Positions 19,884 through 37,324 of a DNA stretch of 42,055 nucleotides are shown one piece after another; positions within the stretch are counted from its first letter, which is position 1, and each line of letters starts with the position of its first letter. The notes beneath the pieces were generated by a model. The model worked only from the letters and a program-made list of their open reading frames with translations, searched no databases and was not told the origin of the DNA. This DNA comes from an uncultured bacterium (GTDB taxonomy: Bacteria > Zixibacteria > MSB-5A5 > CAIYYT01). The DNA lies in contig CAIYYT010000080.1 of assembly GCA_903930455.1 (NCBI GenBank), positions 1 through 42,055 of the forward strand, written 5' to 3'. A program made the translations under genes and the position numbers.

Positions 19884-19958
19884 GGGGCCGTAGTTCAGTT
19901 TGGTTAGAACGCCTGCCTGTCACGTAGGAGGTCGCGAGTTCGAGCCTCGTCGGCCCCG
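19884..19958 (+). tRNA. tRNA-Asp (anticodon GUC)
   Basis: The acceptor stem GGGGCCG/CGGCCCC is perfect; D arm GTTC/GAAC, anticodon stem CCTGC/GTAGG with loop CTGTCAC (GTC), and T arm GCGAG/CTCGT with TTCGAGC complete the cloverleaf. The discriminator is G; no CCA is encoded. The 3' half is also read in antisense as the C-terminus of a serine recombinase remnant, which marks this tRNA as the target of the adjacent island. Confidence 0.96.
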
Positions 19959-20620
19959 CTTTTCTTTCCCATAGCAAGAACTTCCCTGTTTGCCATCGTT
20001 CTCGGATCAAGGGGAAACGTATACTCAATTTGGACTTGGGGGAAACCATAGTCGATGCGTTTGACAAACGATCTCAGGAAGGTTTTTTGCTCAAAGAACT
20101 CTCCCTCAAGCAGCAACGCTCTCAAATCGGTCACATACCGCTTGAGTTCCGACTTTGAGATTGCTTTGACGGGCTGTCTCCGTTCTCTATCTGATTCACA
20201 GACCGAGATTCTCGACTGGAGATCGTTCATCTGCTGCTTCAACTTCTCTATTCTTGGTGCAACCGTGGCGGCAGACAAGTGGCCCTGCTCTATTGCGTCG
20301 TACAGCCGTTCAAGCTTATCCTGAATCTTCGGCAGCTGGAGTCTACAAGCTTCAAGGTCTTTGCTTAACTTCCTCGACTGGTCTGCGAGCTCGGCGTTCG
20401 TGAGTCTCAGCAGCTCGCTCAAATTTTCCTCAGTGAGAACGTGCTCCTTGAGCTTGTCTACAACCATGGTTTCGAGCTTATCAGAATTGATGGGCTTACA
20501 TTTGCAGCAGTCAAGGTCGACACGAGATCGACTGTAGCAGGCATAATAGCGGTATTTTCCAGACTTCGCAGTAGCTCCAAGCATTGCCTTTCCGCACTGT
20601 TCACAATAGAGGAATCCACT
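19904..20620 (-). pseudogene. Large serine recombinase, C-terminal fragment
   Basis: Only the C-terminal part of a large serine recombinase remains. It begins with a zinc-ribbon segment (FLYCEQCGKAMLGATAKSG, then YYACYSRSRVDLDCCKC), followed by a long coiled coil with DLEACRLQLPKIQDKLERLY and the C-terminal FVKRIDYGFPQVQIEYTF block. The resolvase catalytic domain is missing and an in-frame TAG lies directly before the homologous part (20621-20623). An ATG at 20584 could express 226 residues, but without the catalytic serine domain. The last residues (ADEARTRDLLRDRQAF) are the antisense reading of tRNA-Asp, as expected for an integrase gene abutting its attachment site. Confidence 0.8.
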
Positions 20621-20672: not shown

Positions 20673-21779
20673 ATGACAAGAATCAATGTCGGCAATGTCA
20701 AGATCAAGCGGCGATATCTGGACCGGCTCAAGCAGGCAAAAGGGCTCTCCGAATCTTCCATCGTGTCGATTGAGCGTGCCCTTAACAAGTACGATGAATT
20801 CGCAGACGGCCTTGACTACAGAGCCTTCACGAGCTCGAAAGCTGTTGCTTTCAGGAAGTGGCTCACGGAGCATCAAGGCAAAGACAAGCCGGTCTCAGCG
20901 GCTACCGCCTACTACGTGATCCGGCAGGTGCGCGGCTTCTTCATGTGGTTGTCAGGGGAGCCGGGCTTTAGATCAAAAATCACTGCTGATTCGGTGACGT
21001 ACTTGTCACTCGATCTAAAGACAGTGCGGGCAGCGACTTCCCCGAAGTTCACGAGCTCCCCGACTTTGGACTATGTCCTGAAGCTCGTCCAATCCATTGA
21101 GCCGGTGAATGAAATAGACGTGAGAGATCGGGCGCTCATAGCATTTTTGCTATTGAGTGGCATGCGTGTCCTGGCCATAGCGACGCTGCCTCTCGGGTGT
21201 TTTGATCCGGAGACAAACTTGATTGACCAAGACCCTGCTAAGGGCGTTCACACCAAATTTGGAAAAACGATAATCACTAAGCTTCTACCCTTTGATCGTC
21301 AGCTACTGGATTACGTCCTGGAATGGCACAAGTATCTGGCAACCACGAGGCTTTTCGGGCAGACTGATCCATTCTTCCCGAGCACGAAGATGCAGCAATC
21401 CGACGACGGCTTCTCCTTTGAGGCGGTTGGAGTCGAGCCGGTCTTCTGGTCGACCGCTTCGCCTATCCACAGAATCCTGCGAGAGCGTTCTGAGCACGCC
21501 CGGCTACCCTACTTCAAGCCTCACGCGTTCAGGCACGCGGCTATTCACCTTGCCATGCGCTTCAGTAGAAATGCAGAGGAAACCAAGGCGCTTAGCCAGA
21601 ATTTCGGCCACGAGAACATCGGAACGACTCTCTTGACGTACGGCAACCTTGACACTTACCGGGTTATCGAGGTAATCAAAAAGATGGATTTCGGTGGGAA
21701 GGCGGCAGGTGCTCTCAGTACTGACCAAATCAACGAGATGATCGGTATGCTGGAGAGCCTTAAAGACAAGACAGATTAG
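20673..21779 (+). CDS. Tyrosine recombinase / site-specific integrase
   Basis: This is a phage-integrase family protein of 368 residues. The N-terminal SAM-like DNA-binding domain spans about 10-100. The catalytic domain has the first Arg in LLLSGMRVLAIATL, the HAFRH box in KPHAFRHAAIHLA, a GH in NFGHENIGTTLLTYGNL and the nucleophile Tyr probably in that last segment (TYGN), with R-H-R-H/Y order as usual. It starts at ATG 20673 shortly after the broken serine recombinase and points into the island, so it could be the enzyme that mobilises the module. It does not closely resemble XerC/D housekeeping recombinases in layout (extra insert at about 255-285). Confidence 0.88.
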   Translation: MTRINVGNVKIKRRYLDRLKQAKGLSESSIVSIERALNKYDEFADGLDYRAFTSSKAVAFRKWLTEHQGKDKPVSAATAYYVIRQVRGFFMWLSGEPGFRSKITADSVTYLSLDLKTVRAATSPKFTSSPTLDYVLKLVQSIEPVNEIDVRDRALIAFLLLSGMRVLAIATLPLGCFDPETNLIDQDPAKGVHTKFGKTIITKLLPFDRQLLDYVLEWHKYLATTRLFGQTDPFFPSTKMQQSDDGFSFEAVGVEPVFWSTASPIHRILRERSEHARLPYFKPHAFRHAAIHLAMRFSRNAEETKALSQNFGHENIGTTLLTYGNLDTYRVIEVIKKMDFGGKAAGALSTDQINEMIGMLESLKDKTD

Positions 21780-22055
21780 GCCTGGGGCTACTGCAGAAGA
21801 CGACTGGGTTTTCTGTATCATCTCTCTGGAACTGAGTGCCTCGGCTATCCTCACCGCCATGATCTCACTTATGGACAAGCTCATCGGTAAGGGGCAATCG
21901 AGACAGTTGATCAAGCGCTCGAACAGAGCCGATCCGCTCCACAGCAAACCATCATCCTTAATCAGCAAATCGTGAAAGTAGTTGACAATATAGCCAAGCT
22001 TCACATACTTACGAGCAGTAACCCGATTCAAATCACTGGGAAGGGCAGCAATCCT
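21780..22055 (+). other. Gap between integrase and hsdR; no gene assigned
   Basis: A forward frame running on from the end of the integrase in another phase is open to about 21974 and reads as helix-like protein around 21829-21910 (ELSASAILTAMISLMDKLIG). It has no good start or ribosome binding site, so it may be a decayed remnant or chance. No promoter or terminator stands out. GTG 21972 is the alternative hsdR start. Confidence 0.4.
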
Positions 22056-24587
22056 TTGAAAGAAGCCGCAGCACGAATCAAGATCAATAAGCTACTCGAA
22101 ACAGCAGGGTGGCGTTTTTTCCCGGAGGGAAACTCTCCTGCAAACATCCAACTAGAACTGCATGTTAAGTTGAAACCAGCCGATCTTGAAGTACTGGGAG
22201 ACAATTTTGAAAAAGCGGGTGGCGGGTTCGTTGACTTCCTCCTGCTCGACTCCAAAGACTTCCCGTTCATCGTTCTTGAGGCAAAGTCAGAGGACAAGAG
22301 TCCACTCGTCGGCAAGGAGCAGGCTCGCAAGTATGCCCGCTCCCAGAATTGTCGCTTTGTGATCTTGTCAAATGGCAACCTGCACTACTTCTGGGACCTC
22401 GAACGTGGCAATCCTTACATAATCACCTCTTTCCCGACGCCGAACTCGGTCATGGGCTACCAGAAAGTTGCCCCTGATCCGAAGCGCCTTATTGAAGAGC
22501 CGATTGGCGATGACTACACCGTGCTGACCCAACGCCCGAACTACCAATCCGAAGCGGCGTGGCGCAACGAGGCGGAACGACCCGGCTACATACAGGCCAA
22601 CAAGCTTCGCTTTCTCCGGCCGTATCAACTGAATGCCATCCACGCTCTTCAGCGGGCGGTTAAGGACGGGCATGATCGTTTCCTCTTCGAAATGGCTACT
22701 GGCACTGGCAAGACGCTCACTGCAGCGGCAGTTATCAAGCTGTTTCTGCGAACTGGTAATGCCCGGCGTGTGCTGTTTCTGGTGGATCGTCTGGAACTGG
22801 AGGACCAAGCCAAGAAGGCCTTCGCCGCACTTCTGTCGGCTGACTTTCAGACGGTCATATACAAGGAAAACCGGGACGACTGGCGGCGCGCGGAAATCGT
22901 TGTCACCACCGTGCAGTCCCTGCTCTTCAACAACAAGTATCAGCGACTCTTCTCGCCGACCGATTTCGATCTGGTGATCTCCGACGAAGCGCACCGCTCC
23001 ATTGGCGGCAATGCAAGAGCCGTCTTTGAATATTTCATCGGCTACAAGCTGGGTCTAACAGCCACGCCTCGCGACTACCTGAGAAGATTTGACAACACGA
23101 ATCCTTCTACACGGGATCCGCGCGAATTCGAACGACGACTGCTTCTCGACACCTACAAAACCTTCGGTTGCGAGAATAGTCAGCCAACATTTCGCTATTC
23201 GCTGCTGGACGGTGTGAAAGAAGGGTATCTGATCAATCCGACGGTAGTAGATGCCCGAACCGAGATAACCACAGAGTTGCTCTCCGAGGAGGGGTTTGTC
23301 GTTTCGTTCACCGACGATGCAGGCGAAGATCAGCAGGAGGCTTTCAAGCAGCGGGAGTTCGAGAAACGCTTCTTCGCCGATGCCACCAACCAGCTCTTCT
23401 GCAAGACCTTCCTCGAGAACGCTCTGCGCGACCCTGTCAGCGGCGAGATCGGGAAGTCGATCATTTTCGCCGTCAGCCAGAAGCACTCTACCAAACTCGT
23501 AGAAGTCCTCAATAAGATGGCCGACCGCATGTTCCCCGGCAAGTATCAGTCCGACTTCGCCGTGCAGGTTACTTCGCAGATTTCCGACGCCCAACAGTTC
23601 ACTATCAATTTCGCCAATAACAATCTTCTCGGATCGGCTAACTTCTTGCCAGCCTACAAAACGAGCAAGGCGCGCGTCTGTGTGACTGTAGGTATGATGA
23701 CGACTGGCTACGACTGTACGGACATCCTAAACCTCGGCCTCTTCCGTCCGATCTTTTCCCCCACTGACTTCATCCAAATCAAAGGACGCGGCACCCGCAA
23801 TCACAATTTTCTTGAGCAACTCTTCGATGACAGCATTAGAGAGAACGTGACAAAACCTCGGAAGACCGCCTTCAAGCTTTTCGACTTCTTCGCCAACTGC
23901 GAATATTTCGAGGAAGATTACAACTACGACGAGGTGCTGAAACTCCCCCGGCCACAGATAGGTGGTGGTGGCGACGGTGGTGGCACTGGTCCTGTCGTGA
24001 AGGGAACCTATGAGCATCTGGGCGCGGACATCATTGCATCGATGAAGGTAGAGGAAATCGGTCTCGAGGGGATGAGGATTGATCGCATGTTCTTCGAGAA
24101 GTTCGAGGACACCGTGCGCGAGAACGACTTCATCGCAAAAAGCGTCCAAGCCGGGCAGTGGGACCGCGTCATCGACTATGTCAACCGCGAGGTCTTTGAC
24201 AAACCCGAGGAATACTATAATCTCGATAAACTGCGAAAAGCCGCCGTCGTGGATCGCCGTCTAACCCTGCGTGAAATTCTGGAGAAGATATTCGGCCTCA
24301 TCCCACGTTTCAAGTCCAAGGATGAGCTGCTTGAGGAAGAGTTCGCCAAGTTCGTCGCGGACTTCAAACCGGAAGAGGCGGAGGCCATCCCGGCCATCAA
24401 GAACTACTTCAAGGCCTATATCACCAGCGACCAAGTCCGTCACATTATCGAAAGCAAGCAGTTCACCGACTTGGCAACCAACCCGATCTTTTCTACCCGC
24501 GACTTCCGGGCTGTGCCACAGAAGTACCGCACTATCATCCCGGAATATGTCAAGGACTACGTCTCCTTGAATCAGTTTGCCGCATAG
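22056..24587 (+). CDS. hsdR: Type I restriction enzyme, R subunit
   Basis: HsdR is the motor-nuclease subunit that translocates and cuts unmodified DNA. The N-terminal PD-(D/E)xK nuclease has D60, E75 and K77 (VDFLLLD...VLEAKSED). The SF2 helicase core has Walker A GTGKT (216-220), DEAH (310-313), GLTATP and the QIKGRGTR motif VI. A glycine-rich linker (GGGGDGGGTG) separates the C-terminal helical domain that docks to the methyltransferase. TTG 22056 is chosen because AAGGG lies 10 nt upstream and homology begins right there (KEAAARIKINKLLETAGW); GTG 21972 gives a form 28 residues longer. It is intact at about 843 residues. Three genes and 0.9 kb separate it from hsdMS. Confidence 0.93.
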   Translation: MKEAAARIKINKLLETAGWRFFPEGNSPANIQLELHVKLKPADLEVLGDNFEKAGGGFVDFLLLDSKDFPFIVLEAKSEDKSPLVGKEQARKYARSQNCRFVILSNGNLHYFWDLERGNPYIITSFPTPNSVMGYQKVAPDPKRLIEEPIGDDYTVLTQRPNYQSEAAWRNEAERPGYIQANKLRFLRPYQLNAIHALQRAVKDGHDRFLFEMATGTGKTLTAAAVIKLFLRTGNARRVLFLVDRLELEDQAKKAFAALLSADFQTVIYKENRDDWRRAEIVVTTVQSLLFNNKYQRLFSPTDFDLVISDEAHRSIGGNARAVFEYFIGYKLGLTATPRDYLRRFDNTNPSTRDPREFERRLLLDTYKTFGCENSQPTFRYSLLDGVKEGYLINPTVVDARTEITTELLSEEGFVVSFTDDAGEDQQEAFKQREFEKRFFADATNQLFCKTFLENALRDPVSGEIGKSIIFAVSQKHSTKLVEVLNKMADRMFPGKYQSDFAVQVTSQISDAQQFTINFANNNLLGSANFLPAYKTSKARVCVTVGMMTTGYDCTDILNLGLFRPIFSPTDFIQIKGRGTRNHNFLEQLFDDSIRENVTKPRKTAFKLFDFFANCEYFEEDYNYDEVLKLPRPQIGGGGDGGGTGPVVKGTYEHLGADIIASMKVEEIGLEGMRIDRMFFEKFEDTVRENDFIAKSVQAGQWDRVIDYVNREVFDKPEEYYNLDKLRKAAVVDRRLTLREILEKIFGLIPRFKSKDELLEEEFAKFVADFKPEEAEAIPAIKNYFKAYITSDQVRHIIESKQFTDLATNPIFSTRDFRAVPQKYRTIIPEYVKDYVSLNQFAA

Positions 24588-24597
24588 AGGAGGATCC

Positions 24598-24858
24598 ATG
24601 AGCAAGACCAGAAAATCAATCATAGCGGTTCAAGGAACAGAGATAGCGGTCATGTCGCACCCACAGGGAGACTATATTTCCCTGACGGATATGTTGAAAG
24701 CGAAAGACGGCGATTATTTCATCTCGGACTGGCTGAGAAATCGCAACACGGTCGAGTTTCTTGGTATATGGGAACGCATCTACAACCCCGATTTTAATTA
24801 TGGCGAATTCGCCACAATTAGAAGTCAAGCAGGACTCACAATAGGACGAATGGGATGA
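24598..24858 (+). CDS. KilA-N domain protein, truncated
   Basis: The 86-residue product starts at ATG 24598 after a strong AGGAGG. It matches the N-terminal part of KilA-N domain DNA-binding proteins (SLTDMLKAKDGDYFISDWLR, RNTVEFLGIWERIYNPDF, FATIRSQAGL). Full-length relatives continue for about 180 residues after the QAGL point with the core KilA-N segment; here the frame ends nine codons on, so the gene is cut. Its last 4 nt (ATGA) overlap the next start. The strong ribosome binding site suggests it is still translated, perhaps now serving mainly to couple the next gene. Full-length relatives are common companions of Type I modules. Confidence 0.75.
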   Translation: MSKTRKSIIAVQGTEIAVMSHPQGDYISLTDMLKAKDGDYFISDWLRNRNTVEFLGIWERIYNPDFNYGEFATIRSQAGLTIGRMG

Positions 24859-25496
24859 CCGCCAACGAGCCTCTGATCCAGGCACATGGTGGCTACCGAA
24901 AACTCAAGAGTTTTCAGGTGGCCCAGATGGTTTTCGACATCACGGTCCGTTTTTGCGACCGCTACATCGATAAGCGCAGCCGCACCTGCGATCAGATGGT
25001 ACAGGCGGCGCGGTCCGGCGTGCAGAACATCGCCGAGGGTAGTCAGGCCTCGGGAACCTCAAAAAAGACCGAACTTAAACTCACCAATGTCGCGCGGGCC
25101 AGTCTGGAAGAACTGCGACTCGACTACGAGGATTTCCTGCGTCAGCGAGGGCTGACGATCTGGGCCAAGGCCGATCCCCGGCGAACGCATCTCGTCGCGC
25201 GCCGCTGCGCGACTGCGGACGATGTGGCAAGATGGGTGAAAGAAGTGCGTGATGGACTGGATGGACACGATGGACTTGATGGACAGGACCCGTCCATATC
25301 GTCCATCAAGTCCATATCGTCTATAAATCCCTCCTATTCCGAAATCGCCGCCAACGCGGCTCATATCCTAATTGGCGTCGCCTGCGCCCTGCTCGACCGT
25401 CAGATTGCCGCTCAGGCGAAGGCGTTTGAGGCCGATGGCGGCTTCACCGAGCGCTTGTACCGCGTGCGCTCCAAGAACCGCAACAAGCAACAGTAG
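24855..25496 (+). CDS. Four-helix bundle suffix domain protein
   Basis: This 213-residue protein of the four-helix-bundle (23S rRNA-IVP-related) type has a 'suffix' domain. The bundle core is visible in KSFQVAQMVFDITVRFCDRY, DQMVQAARSGVQNIAEGSQA and KLTNVARASLEELRLDYEDF; the suffix helix is ILIGVACALLDRQIAAQAKAF. Between them lies a low-complexity insert (DGLDGHDGLDGQDPSISSIK region) caused by a DNA repeat at 25251-25325. It overlaps the truncated KilA-N gene by 4 nt and precedes hsdMS by 14 nt, so it is part of the restriction operon. The role in restriction is unknown. Confidence 0.82.
   Translation: MTANEPLIQAHGGYRKLKSFQVAQMVFDITVRFCDRYIDKRSRTCDQMVQAARSGVQNIAEGSQASGTSKKTELKLTNVARASLEELRLDYEDFLRQRGLTIWAKADPRRTHLVARRCATADDVARWVKEVRDGLDGHDGLDGQDPSISSIKSISSINPSYSEIAANAAHILIGVACALLDRQIAAQAKAFEADGGFTERLYRVRSKNRNKQQ
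25251..25325. repeat. GATGGAC-type tandem and inverted repeat inside a coding region
   Basis: Short units of GATGGAC(T/A) recur at 25251-25284, and the complementary GTCCAT units recur at 25291-25316. The segments 25270-25284 and 25301-25315 are perfect 15-bp inverted copies with a 16-nt spacer. The whole is a multiple of three and is translated as an Asp/Gly-rich run followed by a Ser/Ile-rich run. Confidence 0.85.
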
Positions 25497-25510: not shown

Positions 25511-27919
25511 ATGCTCGACACAGATACAAAACGCCGCATCGATACCGCCCGCGACATCCTGGTCGGCAAGGTTCCCGATCCCAAATCCCAGGTTGAGCAG
25601 ATCACCATCGCCCTCATCTACAAGTTCATGGATGACATGGATGCTGAGGCAGAGGAACTCGGTGGAAAGCGCAAGTTCTTCGCCGGGGAATTCGCCCGAT
25701 ACGGTTGGGCCAAGCTCATGCGCTCCGGACTGGGCGGCCACGAGACCCTAAACCTTTACGCCGAAGCCATCGCCAAGATGCCGGAGAACCCCGGCATTCC
25801 GTTGCTCTTCCGCGACATCTTCAAAAACGCTTACTTGCCGTATCGCGATCCCGAAACGCTCAAGATGTTTCTCAAAGTCATTGACGAGTTCAGCTACGAC
25901 CACTCCGAGCGACTCGGCGACGCGTTTGAATACTTGCTTTCCGTTCTTGGTTCCCAGGGGGACGCCGGGCAGTTCCGTACGCCACGACACATTATTGATT
26001 TCATGGTCGCGGTCGTCGATCCCAAGAAGAATGAGACCATTCTTGACCCCGCCTGCGGTACCGCCGGGTTCCTCATCTCCTCCTACAAGCACATCGTGCG
26101 TGCCAATTCTGACGCCAAGGGCAACAGCACCCTGACCCCGGAAGAAAAAGGCCGCCTCGCCCGAAATCTCAAGGGCTACGACATCTCGCCAGACATGGTG
26201 CGCCTGTCGCTGGTGAATATGTATCTTCATGGTTTCAGCGACCCGCACATCGCCGAATATGACACGCTCTCTTCACAGGACAAATGGAACGAATACGCCG
26301 ACGTGATCCTCGCCAATCCGCCCTTCATGTCTCCGAAAGGGGGCATCAAGCCGCACAATCGTTTCTCAGTTCAGTCCAAGCGGAGCGAAGTGCTGTTCGT
26401 GGACTACATGGCCGAGCACCTCACCCCCAGCGGCCGCGCCGGTATCATTGTGCCGGAAGGCATCGTCTTCACGAGCCAAACCGCCTACACGCAACTGCGA
26501 AAGATGCTGGTGGAAGAATACCTCGTCGCAGTAATCTCTCTTCCGGCAGGCGTGTTCAATCCGTATTCTGGTGTCAAGACCTCGATTCTGATCCTCGACA
26601 GGTCGCTGGCCAAGAGGGCCAACACTATCGCCTTCTTCAAGGTTGAAAACGACGGTTTCGGACTCGGTGCCCAGCGGCGCGAAATTGACAAGAACGACCT
26701 GCCAGCTGCTTTGTCCGCAATTAAGAAGTGTGAATCTGGAATAATAAATGGTGAGGATGTTCTGTCTCCTGACTTCATAATTCATCCTTCAGCCTTCATT
26801 ATTGTGCCAAAGGAAAAGATCGCGGCGAATGGGGACTACAACCTGAGTGGGGAGCGGTATCGGGAGGGGGCTCCAGTATCAACGATGCAATGGCCAAGGG
26901 TGCATTTGTCCGACGTTACCGTGTATTCGAAGGCAGGCGAGGTAATCGACCGAGGCTATTGGGGAAAGGGTACGGAGTTGCTGTATACGTGTGCTGAAGC
27001 GCCAATACGATGCGATTTCCCAGGATTTCCAGCCGACAAGCGCACTGTCGATGGCGACATTCTGCTTGCTCGCAACGGTTATGGGTACGCTCATTTGGCG
27101 TTACCTGATGCGATTTACACCAACGTCGTACAACTTGTGAAGGTTGATCGCGAACGCGCCGTTCCGCCGTACATAGTTAGGATTCTGCAGTCGCAGATCA
27201 GTCGTCTTCAAGCGGTCGGACAAGGCATCCCAAGTCTGAACATGGCGGTATGGAATGAACTCCAAATCCCCCTGCCGCCGCTGGAGGTGCAGAAAGAGAT
27301 CGTGGCGGAGATCAAGGGCTATCAGAAAGTCATCGATGGTGCGCGCGCGGTCGTCGACAATTACCGCCCCTACATCCCCATCCACCCAGACTGGCCGATG
27401 GTGGAGTTGGGAGACGTTTTCAAACTGTCAAGCGGGCGGGGCCTCACGCAATCGAACATGAATGAAGGCCCATATCCCGTTTACGGCGGAAACGGGAAGA
27501 CAGGAACTCATTCAGAATACTTCTTGGAAGCGGCGAATATAGTCATTGGTCGTGTCGGCGCTTATTGTGGAGTCGTCCACATCACGGAACCAAATGCATG
27601 GGTGACAGATAACGCGCTCTACGTTACTGAATTCAAACAAGAGGTTGATTTGGGGTATTTGGCCCAACTACTGGTTCAGTTGGACTTGAATCAATTCGCC
27701 AAGGTCGGTGGCCAACCTTCTATCTCACAGACGACTGTCTGTGAGAGGGCAGTCCCCCTCCCACCTCTCGCCACCCAACAGGCCATCGTCGCCGAGATCG
27801 AAGCCGAGCAGGCGCTGGTCGCCGCCAACCGAGAGCTAATCGAGCGCATGGAGAAGAAGATTCAGGCAACTCTCGCACGGGTTTGGGGAGAGGACGAAGC
27901 CGCCCCGGTAAAGGCCTAA
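25511..27919 (+). CDS. Type I restriction-modification M-S fusion (N6-adenine methylase plus two target-recognition domains)
   Basis: One 802-residue chain carries both HsdM and HsdS functions. Residues 1-150 are the HsdM N-terminal helical domain; the methylase has motif I DPACGTAGF (179-187) and motif IV NPPF (269-272), so it is an N6-adenine enzyme. A first target-recognition domain spans about 457-600 and closes with IPLPPLEVQKEIVAEI; a second spans about 627-765 and closes with VPLPPLATQQAIVAEI, each followed by a helix that serves as spacer. An AT-rich inverted repeat encodes part of the junction at 410-432. ATG 25511 follows AAGGAGA. Normally M and S are separate genes; here S is fused and only R is separate. 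Confidence 0.92.
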   Translation: MLDTDTKRRIDTARDILVGKVPDPKSQVEQITIALIYKFMDDMDAEAEELGGKRKFFAGEFARYGWAKLMRSGLGGHETLNLYAEAIAKMPENPGIPLLFRDIFKNAYLPYRDPETLKMFLKVIDEFSYDHSERLGDAFEYLLSVLGSQGDAGQFRTPRHIIDFMVAVVDPKKNETILDPACGTAGFLISSYKHIVRANSDAKGNSTLTPEEKGRLARNLKGYDISPDMVRLSLVNMYLHGFSDPHIAEYDTLSSQDKWNEYADVILANPPFMSPKGGIKPHNRFSVQSKRSEVLFVDYMAEHLTPSGRAGIIVPEGIVFTSQTAYTQLRKMLVEEYLVAVISLPAGVFNPYSGVKTSILILDRSLAKRANTIAFFKVENDGFGLGAQRREIDKNDLPAALSAIKKCESGIINGEDVLSPDFIIHPSAFIIVPKEKIAANGDYNLSGERYREGAPVSTMQWPRVHLSDVTVYSKAGEVIDRGYWGKGTELLYTCAEAPIRCDFPGFPADKRTVDGDILLARNGYGYAHLALPDAIYTNVVQLVKVDRERAVPPYIVRILQSQISRLQAVGQGIPSLNMAVWNELQIPLPPLEVQKEIVAEIKGYQKVIDGARAVVDNYRPYIPIHPDWPMVELGDVFKLSSGRGLTQSNMNEGPYPVYGGNGKTGTHSEYFLEAANIVIGRVGAYCGVVHITEPNAWVTDNALYVTEFKQEVDLGYLAQLLVQLDLNQFAKVGGQPSISQTTVCERAVPLPPLATQQAIVAEIEAEQALVAANRELIERMEKKIQATLARVWGEDEAAPVKA
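26740..26803. repeat. AT-rich imperfect inverted repeat inside the M-S gene
   Basis: The segments 26740-26759 and 26783-26803 are imperfect inverted copies (AATAAT...GGATG against CATCC...ATTATT). This part is visibly richer in A+T than the rest of the gene and encodes the hydrophobic run GEDVLSPDFIIHPSAFI at the methylase end. It looks like a small mobile repeat inserted in frame. Confidence 0.6.
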
Positions 27920-27922
27920 GCC

Positions 27923-28090
27923 ATGGAAGAAGCCGCCGAACTGGAAAGCTACTTGCCGCTTTCGTACAAGAGCCCAAAGGAGCAAGAATATATCGCATTC
28001 CTCCGGGACGCTTTCGAGTCGAACTATCAGAATGAGAAATACCAGTTCGCCTTCCTCGCATACCACATGCTCACGATGTGGTGTATCTGA
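27923..28090 (+). pseudogene. Truncated restriction-module accessory gene
   Basis: A 55-residue frame starts with ATG three bases after the hsdMS stop. It reads ELESYLPLSYKSPKEQEYI, then FLRDAFESNYQNEKYQFAFL and AYHMLTM. From memory this resembles the N-terminus of a conserved protein often coded after hsdS in Type I loci. In this locus it breaks after HMLTM and ends five residues later (WCI) in sequence that belongs to a dockerin gene in another frame. It is therefore a gene cut by recombination at about 28075. Confidence 0.6.
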
Positions 28091-28140
28091 TTGCCTACAT
28101 CTTTAGCGGTGGACAAGCGCCGTGTGCGGAATGTAAGTAA
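28075..28140 (+). pseudogene. Orphan 3' tail of a dockerin-like gene
   Basis: The frame 28075-28140 encodes DVVYLIAYIFSGGQAPC and then AECK before a TAA. It aligns without gaps to the last 66 nt of the dockerin gene ending at 35054, with 12 mismatches, nearly all silent or conservative. No start or upstream dockerin sequence exists; the 5' part was replaced by the restriction island. It is a scar of an insertion or deletion. Confidence 0.8.
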
Positions 28141-28228
28141 CTTAAGACGGAATCATCTGGCATTCGCCTTCCAAGATCGTCAGAAAGATCGGCGAAGCAC
28201 GCCCGATCATACGTGGAATTAGTCAGAC

Positions 28229-30625
28229 TCAGTCGCGAAAGAGCTTTGCTCCAAAATGGGGATCAAATTCCAGTTCCTTTAGCGAAGGACCGGCGTGATG
28301 CTCGACCGCTTTTGCCTTGAATATCTCGACATGAGGCCTATCTCCGAGGAGGGCATAGCATCGCGCTATGTTGTGCAGTAGATCTCCCTGGCATTCGGGG
28401 TCTGCCATCAGCTTCACCAGAATAGACAATGCTTCCGTCTTCTTTCCAGCGGCCGCGAGCGCCAGGGCTCGATAGCTTGCTAGTTGGCAATTAGCCGGAT
28501 CGCGACTCAGGTAGTCCTCCGCCGACTGGCAGGCCTTTTCAAAGTTGATCCTCGCGTGATCCGAGTTATCCTGAAGGATATCAATAAGCCCGAGTAGATA
28601 GTATGCAATGAAAGGCAGATATCCGCGTTCAAGCGACTCTCGAAGTAGTGACTTCGCTTCTTCGTAGTTTCCCGTTGCCAGTTGAGCATACCCGGCTTCA
28701 ATGTGACTATTGGGGTCTCCTTTGTACTTGATAGCAAGCTGAAAATTGTCGATGGCAAGCTCTGGAACCCCCAATTTCATATATACGATGCCCAGATAGT
28801 AATAAGCACGCCCATAGTCGGGACCCAATTCCACCGCACGCTGCAAGGTTGCCATTGCCAAGGTGAATTTGCGCATGTCAAGATACAGTAGACCCAAAAG
28901 GAGCAACGTCTCCAGATCAGTAGGTGATAGTTCAAGGGCTTTCTTGGCCCAGATCAACGCTGCCTCATCGTCCCCCGCCATATCTTTCAACCATGCCAGC
29001 GCCCGATAGCCCATGGCAAACTTCGGCGAGATGTTTACGGACGCCTTGAGGGACCTCTCAGCATTCTCCAAGTCTCCCATAAACATATAGCATCGCCCCA
29101 ACGCGCGATGCGCTTCCGGTAACAGCGGGTCGATTGCCAATGCCTGGCGAGCTTCCTCAATCGCCAAAGCGATTTTCTCTGGGCGCCTGTCATAATAGGC
29201 GTTGTACTGGAACGCATGGACGTCGGAGAGTCCCGTCATGGCCAGAGCAAAACTAGGGTCGAGTTCGAGAGCCTTTGCAAACATATTGATTGCGAATTCA
29301 AGGTCTTCTGGTTTGCTAGTATGGTAGTAGCTTCTTCCCTTTAGATAAAAGTCATAGGCCGTCACGTCGGTGTTCATGAGACGATCGACATCGACAATAG
29401 CTACGCCACTGGCTTTGGCCAATGCCTCGGAAGCACTACGAGCGGCACCAGAAAGCAGTTCGAACAACTGTTTCACCTCGCCGCGAAACTGCTCGCCATA
29501 AATCAGCTTGTTGCCATTCTCTCCGTAGACACTTAAACCCAGCTTAATCTCCTCCTGCCACCGCATCAGTGTCCCTGTGATCACATAGTCTGGTCGACAT
29601 CTCCGGAAAATGCTTGTGATCTCTCCCTGGGCCGAACCGGCAGGTTCAACCGACACCACTGCGTCGATACGCAGCGAAATTTCTCGAATCAGATCATCGG
29701 TAAAACCTACACAGAAGTAGTTCCAAGATTCATCACCGGATAGGTTTCTGAGATGCGTGACCGTTATCGTTCGTCGCCTGGCCCTATAAGTGCCGACGCC
29801 GGCAATTGTAGCATCTGCGGTCTGTGTCGCATCAAGATAGTCGATTACCGAGCCCATGTCCGGGAAGCGGTCGATCGCGTTTTTTTTTAGGAGCTTTAGC
29901 ACCAGTTCATCAACCCAAGCCGGCAACGAGGTGTCTCGCTCGCAGGGAGGAGTCGGATCTTCATGCAGTATTGCGTAGACAATTGCTGCGGAATACTCAC
30001 CATCAAATGGTTTGTGACTGGTGAACATTTCATAGAGGATCACGCCGTAGCTGAAAATATCAGTGGACAAGGACTGCTTGGCGCCCGCCACCTGCTCCGG
30101 TGACATGTAGAAAAGAGTCCCCTCGATGTTCCCCTGACTGTCAATGGTGTCAGCACTGATGATCTTGGCCAGACCGAAGTCAAGGATCTTGATTGAACCA
30201 CCATCGGAAACTATAATGTTCCCCGGCTTCAAATCGCGATGAATGACCCCTGAGGAATGTGCGATTTGTAAGCCTTCTGCCAGTTCACGGGCAATTCTCA
30301 CTTTCTCCTCGAAAGTGAGTTCCGGCATGACTTCGTCCAAACCGCGGCCGGAGACATACTCATACGAAATGAAAGGGGTGCCCTCAAACTCCGAGCATTC
30401 CCAGATCTTCACGACCTGTTTTGTATTGATCTTGCCGGCACTTCTGGCTTCCTGAAAGAGCCTGGTGCGATACTCCGGATCACCCGCGAACTTGTCCGAG
30501 ATTACTTTGAGTGCCACGGTTCGATCAAGTCGCTCGTCAACGGCCTTATAGACGACCCCCATGCCACCTTCGCCAAGTCGCCCAACGATTCGATAGCTAC
30601 CTACATGGGATCCAATACTAAGCAT
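28229..30625 (-). CDS. Ser/Thr protein kinase with TolB-like and TPR regions
   Basis: The 798-residue cytosolic kinase has a PknB-type N-terminal domain: glycine loop GEGGMGVVYKA, catalytic K40, HRDLKPGN (H129-D131), DFG (149-151) and SPEQ. Residues about 285-400 form a TolB/FlgO-like domain (LRNLSGDESWNYFCVGFTDD...), also seen in adenylate-cyclase-type sensors. Residues about 415-790 are TPR repeats for protein binding. No membrane segment is seen. ATG 30625 follows TGAGGAAATC. A run of nine adenines at codons 246-249 (29880-29888) lies in the kinase C-lobe and could allow slippage. The upstream phosphatase on the same strand is the likely antagonist or partner. Substrates are unknown. Confidence 0.93.
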   Translation of the reverse strand: MLSIGSHVGSYRIVGRLGEGGMGVVYKAVDERLDRTVALKVISDKFAGDPEYRTRLFQEARSAGKINTKQVVKIWECSEFEGTPFISYEYVSGRGLDEVMPELTFEEKVRIARELAEGLQIAHSSGVIHRDLKPGNIIVSDGGSIKILDFGLAKIISADTIDSQGNIEGTLFYMSPEQVAGAKQSLSTDIFSYGVILYEMFTSHKPFDGEYSAAIVYAILHEDPTPPCERDTSLPAWVDELVLKLLKKNAIDRFPDMGSVIDYLDATQTADATIAGVGTYRARRRTITVTHLRNLSGDESWNYFCVGFTDDLIREISLRIDAVVSVEPAGSAQGEITSIFRRCRPDYVITGTLMRWQEEIKLGLSVYGENGNKLIYGEQFRGEVKQLFELLSGAARSASEALAKASGVAIVDVDRLMNTDVTAYDFYLKGRSYYHTSKPEDLEFAINMFAKALELDPSFALAMTGLSDVHAFQYNAYYDRRPEKIALAIEEARQALAIDPLLPEAHRALGRCYMFMGDLENAERSLKASVNISPKFAMGYRALAWLKDMAGDDEAALIWAKKALELSPTDLETLLLLGLLYLDMRKFTLAMATLQRAVELGPDYGRAYYYLGIVYMKLGVPELAIDNFQLAIKYKGDPNSHIEAGYAQLATGNYEEAKSLLRESLERGYLPFIAYYLLGLIDILQDNSDHARINFEKACQSAEDYLSRDPANCQLASYRALALAAAGKKTEALSILVKLMADPECQGDLLHNIARCYALLGDRPHVEIFKAKAVEHHAGPSLKELEFDPHFGAKLFRD

Positions 30626-30866: not shown

Positions 30867-32144
30867 CTACACCGGATTTCTCACGGCAACAAGCGTGATA
30901 TCATCGCTTTGCGGAACGTCACCCTGGAAGCGTACTACAGAATCCTTGATCAGGTACACAAGTTCAGCGGCGGATAGCGACCGATTTGTTCTCACTAGAT
31001 CAAGAAGCCGTGATTCTCCGTACTGCTCCTCAGAAGCGTTGGCGGCTTCTGTTATGCCATCGGTGTAAAGCAAGATCGATTCACCTGCCCGAAGCGAGAC
31101 CTCAGATTCCGTGTATTTGGAGTCAGGGGAGAAGCCCAGGACGATGCCGCCTTCCTCCAACTCAACTATCCTGTCGCGGCCGACAAAGATCGGGTAGCAG
31201 TGTCCGGCGTTGACGTAGGTGAAGATGCTCCGGCGCACGTCGAGGACGCCATAGATCAGCGTGATAAATCGTCCTTCGACCAGAGATCGGGAAAGCATGA
31301 AATTGAGGTTGTTGATTGTCTCCTTCGGGCTTCGGTCAAGTATTGCCTGTCCCCGCAGACACGATTGCAGGTTTGCCATCAGGAGCGCCGCTGACGTGCC
31401 TTTTCCCGACACGTCGGCGATAGAGATTCCGAGGTGATTTTCATCGATAGGAATGAAGTCGAAATAATCACCCCCAATCATCTGCGCCGGTTCATAGAGC
31501 CCCGCAATATCAAAGTGATTTGCTCGCGGCTTTTCGCGCGGAAGCAGGGAAAACTGAATCACACGCGCTGCAAGCATTTCCTTATCCAGAGATTCCAGCC
31601 GGCGTTCTTCGTCATAAAGGCGTGCGTTTTCGATGGTCTGCGCCGACTGCGTTGCCACGATGGTCAACAACCGAGCATCATCATTCGAAAACTCCTGGCC
31701 ATCGGTTTTGTTCAGCAAGCAAATAACGCCGATCAGCGTATCCTTAAGTTGCAGCGGCACCGCCAACAAACGGCGAAGGTTGGAATACTCGCCAGCCAGA
31801 TCGACAAATCTCTTGTCGCCGACAACGTCATTCACTATCAGGGGATTTCGATTTTTGATGACCCATCCCATCAGACTGGCGCCGACCTTGAAGGGTATGG
31901 TACTGACATCGGAGTCCATTACTCTAAGAAAGGTCTTCGGGGGAGCCGTCTTATCTATCCGATCCAGCAGCCAGATTGCTCCCTGCTCGGCGCCGGCGTG
32001 CTCGACGCACTTCCTGACAATCAGGTTCGTAACGGCATCGACACCGACCGCACTACTGATCGCCACGCTGACCTCATTTAGAATCCTTAGCTCTGCGATG
32101 GCTCGTTTGAGCCTACGATTTTCCTCTCTGATTTCGTCCGACAT
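30867..32144 (-). CDS. GAF domain-containing SpoIIE-type PP2C phosphatase
   Basis: The 425-residue protein has an N-terminal coiled start (ENRRLKRAIAELRIL), a GAF domain at about 30-178 and a PPM/SpoIIE phosphatase domain at about 190-422. Metal-binding motifs are intact: GGDYFDF (224-230), DVSGKGTSAALL (244-255), YVNAGHCYP, LLYTDGITEA and SDDITLVAV. This RsbU-like layout typically dephosphorylates an anti-anti-sigma factor after a signal to GAF. ATG 32144 follows GAAGAGGGCAA. It is 241 nt upstream of the kinase on the same strand, so the two may share a transcript or have separate promoters. No RsbV/RsbW genes are in the window. Confidence 0.92.
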   Translation of the reverse strand: MSDEIREENRRLKRAIAELRILNEVSVAISSAVGVDAVTNLIVRKCVEHAGAEQGAIWLLDRIDKTAPPKTFLRVMDSDVSTIPFKVGASLMGWVIKNRNPLIVNDVVGDKRFVDLAGEYSNLRRLLAVPLQLKDTLIGVICLLNKTDGQEFSNDDARLLTIVATQSAQTIENARLYDEERRLESLDKEMLAARVIQFSLLPREKPRANHFDIAGLYEPAQMIGGDYFDFIPIDENHLGISIADVSGKGTSAALLMANLQSCLRGQAILDRSPKETINNLNFMLSRSLVEGRFITLIYGVLDVRRSIFTYVNAGHCYPIFVGRDRIVELEEGGIVLGFSPDSKYTESEVSLRAGESILLYTDGITEAANASEEQYGESRLLDLVRTNRSLSAAELVYLIKDSVVRFQGDVPQSDDITLVAVRNPV

Positions 32145-32291
32145 TTGCCCTCTTCGATCTGCGCGATCTCTTTGTCCTGAAGACCACGATTCTTTGAGTC
32201 ACAGGCAATAAACTGAAAGTCGGCCAAAGAGCAAGTTTGAAAATAGAAGGATCTCCCTAGCAGCTAAGGGCTCTTCTGTAGCGAAAAGCTC

Positions 32292-32320
32292 TTGACAAAT
32301 CACGGGAAATCGGATATATT
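32292..32320 (+). promoter_or_regulatory. Near-consensus sigma70-type promoter
   Basis: TTGACA (32292-32297) and TATATT (32315-32320) are separated by exactly 17 nt. It lies 77 nt upstream of the ATG of the dockerin protein, and predicts a leader of about 70 nt. An in-frame TTG within the -35 box at 32292 is not a start for this reason. Confidence 0.85.
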
Positions 32321-32396
32321 TAGCCACAAGCTGAATACGGAATCAGGGGATCTACTCCCTAGTAATAATAGATTACTTACCAGACTGGAGACGACA

Positions 32397-35054
32397 ATGA
32401 AAAGGGTGCTCTTGCTTTTAGTCAGCATCGTTCTGTGTTTGCTCGTTGCAAATCCTGGGCAGGCCACGGCTGAAGAACTCCATTTGTTGTGGGCTTGCGG
32501 GGACGCCAACGGCGATATGACCTTAAATTTTTCTGACGCGTATTACTTATTGTTCTATATCTTCTCTGGCGGCCCAGATCCTATTCCGCTGGAAGCAGGA
32601 AACGCCGACGCTGGATGCAGAATAAATCTTTCCGATGTGGTGTATCTCTGCAATTATTTCTTCAGCGGAGGATGGCCGCCGTACGACTGCCCGCTACCCT
32701 CAGCATGCACCTATGGGACTCTTGCAGGAAACAGTATCAACATGGGCTGCAAACCGTATACAGGCAATAATGATTCCATTGCCATCCCAATCTATATGAG
32801 CAACAATGTAAGCATCAAAGGGGTATCGGTGGGATTTCACTATCCGTCAAACAGCATTGAAATCACCAGTATTGACTTCAGTGGTTCGATCATGCCCGGC
32901 AGCTGGGATAAGCGGGCGCTCTTTAAGCCGGCGCAGAACCAGGTGCTCTTGGGCGGACTGGACTTCTTCGGCTCAACTATAGGTCCACAGACAGGCGGCC
33001 TCTTGTGCAAACTCAACGTCCGTATTCTCTCCGGCGGTCCGGACCAGTTTATCGACCTCGACACAAGTTTTGTCGGCCCGGGTGGCGATTTCATGTTTGC
33101 TTACCCCCCCAGCAACATCTGTCCGGAATACGTCAAGTGCAGCCCAGCAGATTTTAGCGTAGCTCAGACTGCAGATACAGCCGATGTCTTTTACATCAAG
33201 CAGGCGGACATTGACGGTGACAACTATACTGATGTAGTCTACACCGGCAACACGGCAGACAGCCTCTACATTGCCTATGGCAGAGCCGATGGGACGTTGG
33301 AGACTCCGCGTAACTATCTGAAAGTGACCAAGGCTGCGCTGGCGGTTGATTTCGTCAACGGTGACTCTCTGTTGGACATCGTCGCCCATACCGCGGGGAA
33401 GGTCTATGTCCTGCTCAATACGGGCAACCGCAATTTCAGCATCGATTCGCAGGGTGTCAGTCTGTCGAGCCGGGGATCGGACGCTGGTCGTAGCAGCGTT
33501 TTTCCATCGATCGCAACCGGATACTTCGACAGCGATGCGCATCTGGATGCGGTGGTCGGCGACAGCACGATTCTTTTTGGCAACGGCAGTGGGGAATTCC
33601 CCACTTCGACGACACTGCCGTTTTTGTTTGATGCTGTCGATGTTAGCGACTTTGACCGCAATGGGACTGATGATATTGTAGTTACGTCAGGTGATTCCGC
33701 CTTTATCTATCTGAACGACGGTAGTGGCAATATGACTCGGTCGGCGGCATTGCGCATCGGCTATCTCACTCACGATTTCACTAGTGTGGTCGCCGGTATG
33801 GACTTGAACGGTGATGGCAAGACCGACTTTGTAACAGTGACCGGCAACACGGTCGGGACAAATGACACCAGCGTCGTGACAATTGCACTAGGGGATGGCA
33901 GTGGTGGAGTCACCAGCAATGACACCCTTCGTATTGTCGGCACGGCGCTCAACCTGGCATTAGCGGATGTTGACAAGGATCATGACCTCGATATTAGTTT
34001 AGTGAATGTTACAACTCGTGCTTTATTGATTACGACCAATGATGGCGCCGGCAACTTTGCTACGCCCAAGAGCATCTCGTTGGGCAGTGGCACGAATCCC
34101 CTCTATGCACTGATCAACGTCGATGTTGACCGCAACGGCGCACCCGATTTCGTGATCGGTGGAGAAGCCGGTAACCCCATACTGTTAGCCGTCAATCAGA
34201 TTCCGAATGACCCCATTCTTTCTGACGAGATGGTGACTACCGCGTACAATTATGTAACGCTTCGAGTGGAGAACCCTTTGGGACTGGTGATCTCACGACC
34301 ACTGCGCACGGTTGCCGGATCAGCGTACTGGCGTATGGATGCCGACGATAACAACGTGTTGGATGAAAGCGCCTACGACTACAACCTGCAATATGGGGAG
34401 TATCGCGTGGTGATTACACCTCGGATGAATCTTCCCACCGGTCCCCTCTTCAGCATCGGTATCCGCATTGACGGCACGGCAGAATACTCGGCATTCCGGC
34501 AATATTCGGTTCCGCCACCGGGCGACAGTATCGTCTTTTACTATCGAGTGGAGCCGGTATCATCGATCTATCCGGCCAATGGACACCCAACAGCTAATCC
34601 ACAACCGACTTTCAACTGGAGTGGTCTGGTCACCAAAGGACTCGCTGCTGATAGCTATGAGTTCCAGTTGGATCGCTACTATGATTTCCATTCGCTGATC
34701 TTTAGTGTGACTGGTCTGACATCACCCCAGTACCATATCCCGCACTCGCTGGGAGCGGATTCGGTGTTTTACTGGCGGATCCGCCCTGTCAAGGGGGGAA
34801 TTCCCGGTGACTACTCACGGACGTTTGCGGCTTACCTTCTGGACTATCTCTGCGGCGACGCTAATGGTGATGCCGCTGTCGATATCTCTGATGTGGTCTA
34901 TCTGATCGCCTATATCTTCTCCGGAGGTTCAGCACCATCGCCATTGCTCGCTGGTGACGCGAATTGTGATAAAGCGGTTGATATCTCGGATGTGGTATAT
35001 TTGATTGCATATATCTTCTCCGGTGGGCACGCGCCGTGTACGGGGTGTAAGTAA
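32397..35054 (+). CDS. Secreted double-dockerin, cohesin-like, FG-GAP propeller protein
   Basis: An 885-residue exported protein. Residues 1-27 are a signal peptide (MKRVLLLLVSIVLCLLVANP then a QATA/EE-type cut). Residues about 34-110 form a first dockerin-like module (ACGDANGDMTLNFSDAYYLL; INLSDVVYLCNYFFSGG). A cohesin-like beta domain follows (about 115-255; VSIKGVSVGFHYP, GGLLCKLNVRI). Then about seven FG-GAP/VCBS repeats (DIDGDNYTDVVY; DLNGDGKTDFVTVTG; DVDRNGAPDFVIGG) form a probable calcium-binding propeller, then a fibronectin-like region. The C-terminus is a second, canonical dockerin pair (DISDVVYLIAYIFSGG twice). ATG 32397 follows CTGGAG. It is likely surface-located; the ligand is unknown. 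Confidence 0.88.
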   Translation: MKRVLLLLVSIVLCLLVANPGQATAEELHLLWACGDANGDMTLNFSDAYYLLFYIFSGGPDPIPLEAGNADAGCRINLSDVVYLCNYFFSGGWPPYDCPLPSACTYGTLAGNSINMGCKPYTGNNDSIAIPIYMSNNVSIKGVSVGFHYPSNSIEITSIDFSGSIMPGSWDKRALFKPAQNQVLLGGLDFFGSTIGPQTGGLLCKLNVRILSGGPDQFIDLDTSFVGPGGDFMFAYPPSNICPEYVKCSPADFSVAQTADTADVFYIKQADIDGDNYTDVVYTGNTADSLYIAYGRADGTLETPRNYLKVTKAALAVDFVNGDSLLDIVAHTAGKVYVLLNTGNRNFSIDSQGVSLSSRGSDAGRSSVFPSIATGYFDSDAHLDAVVGDSTILFGNGSGEFPTSTTLPFLFDAVDVSDFDRNGTDDIVVTSGDSAFIYLNDGSGNMTRSAALRIGYLTHDFTSVVAGMDLNGDGKTDFVTVTGNTVGTNDTSVVTIALGDGSGGVTSNDTLRIVGTALNLALADVDKDHDLDISLVNVTTRALLITTNDGAGNFATPKSISLGSGTNPLYALINVDVDRNGAPDFVIGGEAGNPILLAVNQIPNDPILSDEMVTTAYNYVTLRVENPLGLVISRPLRTVAGSAYWRMDADDNNVLDESAYDYNLQYGEYRVVITPRMNLPTGPLFSIGIRIDGTAEYSAFRQYSVPPPGDSIVFYYRVEPVSSIYPANGHPTANPQPTFNWSGLVTKGLAADSYEFQLDRYYDFHSLIFSVTGLTSPQYHIPHSLGADSVFYWRIRPVKGGIPGDYSRTFAAYLLDYLCGDANGDAAVDISDVVYLIAYIFSGGSAPSPLLAGDANCDKAVDISDVVYLIAYIFSGGHAPCTGCK

Positions 35055-35078
35055 ACAGGGACGCTAAGTGAACCTATG

Positions 35079-35105
35079 ACCGGGAGTCAAGAGACTCCCG
35101 GTTTT
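35079..35105 (+). terminator. Rho-independent terminator of the dockerin gene
   Basis: A perfect 10-bp stem (35079-35088 with 35093-35102; ACCGGGAGTC against GACTCCCGGT) around an AAGA loop is followed by a T-run (TTTT) and a further TTTTT. It lies 25 nt after the stop and gives a strong end to the transcript. Confidence 0.88.
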
Positions 35106-35232
35106 ACTACGCTTTTTGGAGTGGCGAGCTTCTCAAGGCCAAGATTGAACCGGAAAGTTCTGGTTACCGAATAGCCAACCCCGCTTTTCTTTTGCCTCCT
35201 TAGGATGCCAGCGTTTTCGGCTCGCCCGACAG

Positions 35233-35703
35233 TTACTTCAGAGGTTTGTGGCTGACAGTGCGTAAGTACTTGCCGTCCTTCCGGCTCATCATCCGCTCAT
35301 CCACAAACTCACGCCTTACGCGGCAATAGTCATCATGGAATCGTGCGATTATCTCGTTGACTTCCTTTTCGGGATAGACCTTGCCGAGCTCGAATTGACT
35401 GAGGATATACTCGATGATGTACCTTCTTTTCTTGCGTTGAACGGGAAGCACGTCGAATCTCCCATCTTTCATGAAGCGATTCACGATTTTCTGGCCCGGA
35501 TGCAGAGCATTTTGGTTTGAATGCTTCTCCAACCATTGCAGCAAGTCGGATTCCTTCACCCGCCAATCCTTGCCAATCTTGTACCCGGGCAGTTCAGCAT
35601 ATTTCAGCTTTCTGGCGATAACCTGAACATTCATTTTCAGCAGTTCGGCGATTTCATTGGTGCTGTAGAACTTCAGTTTCGATTGATCATCGATTTCCGA
35701 CAT
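35233..35703 (-). CDS. Excisionase-type HTH plus DUF2087 DNA-binding regulator
   Basis: A 156-residue protein. Residues about 13-60 form a MerR/excisionase-like winged helix (YSTNEIAELLKMNVQVIARKL, GYKIGKDWRVKESDLLQWLE). Residues about 75-150 match DUF2087 (MKDGRFDVLPVQRKKRRYII, GKVYPEKEVNEII, DYCRVRREFVDERMMSRKDG), a domain known from transcriptional regulators. The start ATG 35703 has GTGAGG at proper distance; ATG 35706 and GTG 35715 are alternatives. The promoter has a perfect inverted repeat over the -10 box, so autoregulation is likely. It is not an integrase partner here, as no recombinase is adjacent. Confidence 0.83.
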   Translation of the reverse strand: MSEIDDQSKLKFYSTNEIAELLKMNVQVIARKLKYAELPGYKIGKDWRVKESDLLQWLEKHSNQNALHPGQKIVNRFMKDGRFDVLPVQRKKRRYIIEYILSQFELGKVYPEKEVNEIIARFHDDYCRVRREFVDERMMSRKDGKYLRTVSHKPLK

Positions 35704-35727
35704 CATTAACCTCACAATATCACATTT

Positions 35728-35749
35728 TATACTACTGTGTGATAGTATA
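35728..35749. promoter_or_regulatory. Palindromic operator candidate
   Basis: TATACTA (35728-35734) and TAGTATA (35743-35749) are perfect inverted copies with an 8-nt spacer. One arm covers the -10 box, the other lies downstream near the transcription start. This is the place expected for an autorepressor site; the HTH protein encoded next is the obvious candidate. Function is inferred. Confidence 0.6.
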
Positions 35750-35771
35750 ACGGATAATAACGTATTGTCAA
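35744..35771 (-). promoter_or_regulatory. Promoter of the HTH/DUF2087 gene
   Basis: Read on the minus strand, TTGACA (35771-35766) and TATACT (35749-35744) are 16 nt apart, close to consensus. The transcript would start about 30-40 nt before the ATG at 35703. Confidence 0.8.
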
Positions 35772-35906
35772 GTACTTATTTCTGCATTTCGACAACCGAA
35801 TTGTGAGGTCTTGTCCTTCATCCTGATTCCCCTGTGTCGCAACCTCATGCAAGGACATCCGTAGAATTCACTTGTGGTGCGGACAATCCGGGACGAGGTT
35901 GACTTG

Positions 35907-36392
35907 GTGCAAACTATACAAGTGGTTAAAGAGACAGAGATTGAGACAGCGCGCGAGCTATTCACTGAATATGCCGCTTCTCTTGGATTAGACCTTTGCT
36001 TCCAGGACTTTGATAAAGAATTGCGGAGACTGCCGGGTGAGTATGCTGCTCCTGACGGATGCCTGCTGTTGGCGCACGATGGAGAGAAGGCGCTGGGTTG
36101 TGTGGCGTTCAGAAGGATCGATAAGCAGACTTGCGAGATGAAACGACTCTATGTGCGACCGGAAGCACGTGGACAAAGACTGGGCAGGAAGCTGGCTGAG
36201 GCAATTGTTGCCGAAGCACGTCGGATCGGCTATCATCGCATGCGGCTGGACACGCTGCCCGAAATGGGCAAGGCGATTACGCTTTACCGGACACTGGGAT
36301 TCAGAGAGACGGCAGCGTATCGCTACAATCCGATGCCTGGCGCAATTTTCATGGAATTGGAGCTTGTGGCAGAAAATGATTCTGCACGGTGA
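35907..36392 (+). CDS. GNAT family N-acetyltransferase
   Basis: This 161-residue GNAT protein transfers an acetyl group from acetyl-CoA to an unknown amine. Motif A is MKRLYVRPEARGQRLGRKLAE-like with R-x2-G-x-G-type pyrophosphate loop (ARGQRLG), preceded by ALGCVAFRRI and followed by motif B (LYRTLGFRET). GTG 35907 is chosen, 8 nt after GAGG; GTG 35874 would give 172 residues. It is followed by the PhzF gene 25 nt later, so both probably form an operon. Similar GNATs are often listed as 'putative acetyltransferase'; no specific substrate is implied. Confidence 0.85.
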   Translation: MQTIQVVKETEIETARELFTEYAASLGLDLCFQDFDKELRRLPGEYAAPDGCLLLAHDGEKALGCVAFRRIDKQTCEMKRLYVRPEARGQRLGRKLAEAIVAEARRIGYHRMRLDTLPEMGKAITLYRTLGFRETAAYRYNPMPGAIFMELELVAENDSAR

Positions 36393-36417
36393 CAGAAACT
36401 GACTCGAGGAGAAAATA

Positions 36418-37305: not shown

Positions 37306-37324
37306 CCGATCAATGGCCGTCCTT

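Follow-up and report, generated by a model that had tools for sequence, protein, structure and literature searches.

The change of sequence at position 28075 probably marks a deletion or rearrangement, joined at a microhomology without RecA, in a decaying tRNA-associated defence island. In the window, by which we mean the whole 42,055-nt stretch analyzed from an uncultured bacterium of the Zixibacteria (contig CAIYYT010000080.1), the accessory gene behind a type I restriction-modification (R-M) operon is truncated at an exactly located position, overlaps by 4 nt with the orphan tail of a dockerin gene, and has lost a 3' part that is absent elsewhere in the assembly. To within a few bases, the scar records the loss of the last gene of the restriction module and the reduction of an adjacent surface-protein gene to 22 codons. 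Scars of such type are common; this one is ordinary, but the decay of a bacterial defence island can be read from it cleanly. The parts worth following are the HEPN-like partner of HsdMS and the family of tRNA-integrated islands found in relatives.

Sequence homology at the junction

The initial annotation had matched the DNA from 28075 on to the end of a dockerin gene, and this was confirmed exactly: 28075-28140 differs from 34989-35054 by 12 mismatches in 66 nt, and both copies end in the same TAA stop. Seven of the 12 mismatches occupy third codon positions, and the translated tails, DVVYLIAYIFSGGQAPCAECK and DVVYLIAYIFSGGHAPCTGCK for 28075-28140 and 34989-35054, respectively, represent the last 21 residues of the dockerin pair. 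The match (54/66) excludes chance when compared with the second-best ungapped position in the window (37/66) and with shuffled windows (31-33/66). The break in homology was sharp, as nearly all matches of paralogues from the same genome began at 28074 or 28075. None of these matches extended beyond the stop of the tail, and no dockerin similarity was detected left of 28075 in the window. The join was not marked by a change in composition. A search for the exact junction pattern in viral contigs gave no match, a result that is uninformative on the reality of the join.

Two unrelated sequences thus meet at one point and have a few bases in common there, GATG (28075-28078, + strand), as in a microhomology-mediated rearrangement junction. 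The overlap was placed by the codons of intact accessory homologues and by the dockerin paralogues. Its ATG is certain, while the G follows from ACG being the codon in most intact homologues. That GATG is a shared microhomology was borne out, because in the unrelated intact homologues ACG ATG is followed by AGC and in the window by TGG. The accessory frame had been described as ending in HMLTM at 28075; the junction site is upheld but the exact end is not, since the ATG of HMLTM is 28076-28078 and accessory-derived sequence reaches 28078.

The restriction module and its truncated accessory gene

The module comprises a tyrosine recombinase gene (20673-21779), an HsdR-like type I restriction subunit (21972-24587), a four-helix-bundle protein resembling the 23S rRNA IVP (24855-25496), an HsdM-HsdS fusion (25511-27919) and the accessory remnant, all on the + strand. 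A scan for HsdMS relatives over 84,980 genomes yielded 80 loci from many phyla, with HsdMS proteins 55-73% identical. HsdR homologues (67-88% identical) were present in most of the 80 loci, and about 12 other loci also encoded the four-helix-bundle protein between HsdR and HsdMS.

The accessory remnant (27923-28078, + strand) starts 3 nt after HsdMS and encodes 52 aa, the first fifth of a HEPN-like gene of about 240 codons. Accessory homologues were found in 28 of the 80 loci, and 17 of them were intact, with 240-248 aa and 45-76% identity to the reference copy. These intact copies, which the initial annotation had proposed to look for in related genomes, bear out its reading of the gene as truncated. 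All 17 read on as MSF or MSS (e.g., MSFVYFNIWQI) where the window copy diverges. Six of them have TAC CAC ATG CTC ACG ATG (or TAT/TAC variants) followed by AGC TTC, whereas the window has CAC ATG CTC ACG ATG followed by TGG TGT ATC TGA, indicating that the accessory gene was cut after codon 52. Past the join its frame reads W-C-I and stops at 28088-28090. The lost 3' part was not found in the genome itself or in 57 relatives.

Loss or truncation of the accessory gene is common and recurrent beyond the window genome: among 71 informative loci, the gene was full or nearly full in 21, truncated in seven and absent in 43. In the accessory remnant of a gammaproteobacterial genome, an inverted-repeat-like insert, tgtcccgcagggacggtatcccttgggaca, was observed in frame (L094:12100-12145).

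The dockerin tail and the kinase flank

The right partner (28075-28140, + strand) consists of the final 21 codons and the stop of a dockerin gene, an orphan 3' end recognized by its match to paralogues. Its dockerin frame is open from 28036 and has no ATG, GTG or TTG start, and therefore the tail is not a gene. An intact gene encoding an FG-GAP/dockerin protein, a paralogue of the tail's donor, occupies 32292-35054 (+ strand). Another 38 places in the genome match the tail, several of them at 85-89% and thus closer than this gene. The window gene is therefore just one of many paralogues and no obvious donor, and the earlier derivation of the tail specifically from it is not supported.

To the right of the tail, a protein kinase-TPR gene of the host backbone (28229-30625, - strand; 87% identical in a congener) and a GAF-SpoIIE phosphatase gene (30867-32144, - strand) follow. 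Similarity with the congener contig G001:C283 starts at 28208-28231 (+ strand), 20 nt past the kinase stop, and spans the kinase and SpoIIE genes at 87%. The segment 28141-28207 had no match in the same genome or in four relatives that would point to the donor of the tail, so that the tail and the kinase flank may have come together in a separate event.

In relatives, a dockerin/FG-GAP gene next to the kinase is the usual state. The gene adjoins the kinase 3' end on the same strand in G001, G024 and G046 and convergently, as here, in G031; in G001 it is the 5' end of the orthologous gene that does so. This outcome, which answers the suggestion to look for the dockerin gene in related genomes, makes a bystander loss plausible, and judged from these neighbourhoods the tail is plausibly the leftover of such a gene. 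We infer that the donor lay beside the kinase. The initial annotation also stated that the event destroyed a surface-protein gene. An orphan tail separated from its 5' part agrees with the loss of such a gene, which may have happened in the same event.

A further fragment of a surface-protein gene (L053:5880-6246), located in G001 between SpoIIE and a C10-peptidase-like gene, recurs with 75-80% identity at several other places of the congener and of the genome itself. A region upstream of a congener gene was considered as a dispersed repeat. This was rejected, since one frame is open through most of it, as in a shared coding fragment, and no Rfam family matched.

The left edge and the tRNA-Asp gene

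The left scar of the module is at 20617, a second scar that lies in a serine recombinase gene. Homologue alignment identified 19904-20617 (- strand) as a C-terminal remnant of this recombinase, from the zinc-ribbon part on. Intact copies in relatives have about 500 aa, and six intact copies and one shorter copy stop aligning at exactly 20617. The N-terminal half was not found in the window.

The remnant overlaps tRNA-Asp(gtc) (19884-19959, + strand; ARAGORN and Rfam), the presumed integration site. An exact 14-nt direct repeat links 19954-19967 (the last 6 nt of tRNA-Asp and 8 nt downstream) with 35179-35192, 15.2 kb apart, and was not reproduced in any of 1000 first-order shuffles; the host-like kinase block lies between the copies. 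The second copy, CCCCGCTTTTCTTT (35179-35192, + strand), is a candidate right attachment site, recognized by the repeat as a copy of the tRNA-Asp 3' end. In G036, the tRNA 3' end sequence repeats 29 kb on, over 53 nt at 85%. The right flank (35055-42055) showed no synteny with the four closest relatives.

Were 35179-35192 the right attachment site, the element would include the kinase block, and 28075 would be a scar within it; but this block looks like host backbone, so that 28075 is a candidate internal scar. The join is the right edge of the restriction module, but its reading in the initial annotation as the right limit of the island is not established, given the copy of the tRNA-Asp 3' end at 35179-35192; the integrated element may be larger.

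tRNA-integrated defence islands in relatives

A recombinase gene beside a tRNA gene, as in tRNA-integrated islands, is found in the window and likewise in seven relatives (L200-L206), where a homologue of the tyrosine recombinase lies by tRNA-Asp (four), tRNA-Arg, tRNA-Ser or tRNA-Gln. Next to the tyrosine recombinase homologue stand a serine recombinase-like ORF, terminating at or within the tRNA 3' end, and an HTH gene; QatC-like, HEC-05, type IIG and methyltransferase genes are among the cargo. Compared with all seven, the tyrosine recombinase of the window is flipped relative to the serine recombinase. The arrangement of tRNA and recombinases in the relatives suggests that the island in the window belongs, in rearranged form, to a family of tRNA-integrated defence islands, and this family provides a frame for the origin of the module.

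Four of the seven islands carried the QatC-like gene together with a partner of about 260-290 aa without a PADLOC family. tRNA-Asp-like pseudogene copies (L057:5033-5125 and L055:6490-6535) contained palindromic TCCCG...CGGGA inserts that replace part of the anticodon arm.

Origin of the junction

We propose that a type I module (tyrosine recombinase, HsdR, four-helix protein, HsdMS and the HEPN-like gene) sat in a tRNA-Asp-associated defence island. One break would have fallen in accessory codon 52, the other 66 nt short of the end of a dockerin gene facing the kinase. The broken ends would then have been joined at GATG, removing the last ~190 accessory codons and the 5' part of the dockerin gene. 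That a single event made the join, and that it did so by end joining, are both inferred.

The initial annotation described a restriction island spliced as a unit into a dockerin gene, with the tail as the right remnant and 28075 as the island end. The module end and the start of the dockerin tail do coincide at one point, and the congener and the relatives are without this R-M subfamily. However, such an insertion should leave both halves of its target flanking the island, and no dockerin 5' half exists at the other end of the module, where the left edge cuts the serine recombinase instead. Moreover, no target-site duplication or repeat links the two module edges, and the module, with its accessory gene cut, is incomplete. 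Interruption of a dockerin gene by an inserted island is therefore not borne out and is improbable. With only the truncated serine recombinase at the left end of the module, a deletion or rearrangement junction is the better reading of the join. An assembly chimera of two places in this metagenome-derived genome is equally unlikely. The assembly consists of 266 contigs, dockerin tails form a repeated family, and the longest exact run between the tail and the paralogues compared is 28 nt, enough for a small k-mer; but only 4 nt are common at the join itself, an overlap too short for misassembly by k-mers. Were sequences misjoined within the tail, the join between accessory and dockerin sequence would still be real, and the tail differs from every paralogue compared.

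A serious alternative to a deletion, though a somewhat unlikely one, is an inversion or translocation that moved either the kinase-SpoIIE block or the restriction module and has the scar as one of its ends. In the congener the block runs opposite to its dockerin gene, the breakpoints (28208 and 32243-32266) are near the scar, and the orientation of the tyrosine recombinase, opposite to that in all seven island relatives, points the same way. The reciprocal junctions, with the rest of the accessory gene and the N-terminal half of the serine recombinase, were found neither in the window nor in the genome, which argues against it. The opposite orientation of the congener block does indicate more than one rearrangement here. 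Dockerin tails being the most repeated sequence in this region, homologous recombination between dockerin repeats was also considered. For the join itself it is contradicted and highly improbable, as the left partner is not dockerin DNA and only 4 nt are common to both sides; it could apply only right of 28078. A microhomology-mediated deletion or rearrangement thus remains the probable origin of the join.

HEPN-like features of the lost protein part

The intact homologues contain an RNxxAH (Rx4H) motif at 126-131, of which R126, N127, A130 and H131 are invariant in all 17, in agreement with the Rx4-6H motif of HEPN proteins. As this motif lies in the lost part, the accessory gene probably encoded a HEPN-like protein, judging from sequence motif and structure model together. 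The intact homologues matched Pfam PF18735 (RiboL-PSP-HEPN) with E-values of 0.0016-0.034, below the cut-off, and no PADLOC or NCBIfam family was assigned to the intact protein. Its structure model was confident (pLDDT 91.5) and all-helical. In Foldseek searches with this model, only the HEPN proteins 2hsb and 2q00 exceeded a probability of 0.5, both with E > 1, and no match had a significant E-value.

HEPN genes linked to R-M operons have been proposed to form a second layer of defence (PMC3710099). The window copy ends at codon 52, upstream of the motif, and therefore cannot act in this way. The intact form of the lost gene could matter more than the scar, as a conserved HEPN-like protein of about 240 aa is encoded directly after HsdMS in distant phyla; L096:11577-12299 and the 16 other intact homologues (alignment A1) were observed close after HsdMS-fusion genes in many phyla. 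We tentatively suggest that it might be a HEPN-type partner, so far undescribed, of an HsdMS-fusion type I system that is widespread. Its carriers would be tRNA-integrated defence islands of a likewise undescribed family, in which serine and tyrosine recombinases are paired, and it would be lost repeatedly as costly or dispensable.

Comparison with known systems

At junctions made by illegitimate recombination or microhomology-mediated end joining in bacterial chromosomes, one sequence gives way abruptly to an unrelated one, a few bases are common to both, and each gene has lost an end. The join in the window has the same pattern and nothing distinctive, and the enzymology is not readable from the sequence.

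The window resembles tRNA-integrated islands of the Islander type (PMC4383910) in the order of tRNA-Asp, recombinase genes and defence cargo, with a short repeat of the tRNA 3' end, the candidate attachment site, farther downstream. It differs from them in its truncated serine recombinase and a repeat of 14 nt only, and the relatives differ in pairing a serine recombinase that overlaps the tRNA 3' end with a tyrosine recombinase.

Unlike PrrC of the PrrC-PrrI system (PMC3710099), the accessory protein has no ABC ATPase part; its PF18735 match is sub-threshold, the motif is lost from the window copy, and a HEPN role here is putative. It shares with PrrC and other R-M-linked HEPN genes the last position among the cistrons of a type I R-M operon and the Rx4H motif, and a HEPN-like partner after HsdMS fits the two-layer defence proposed for such genes (PMC3710099).
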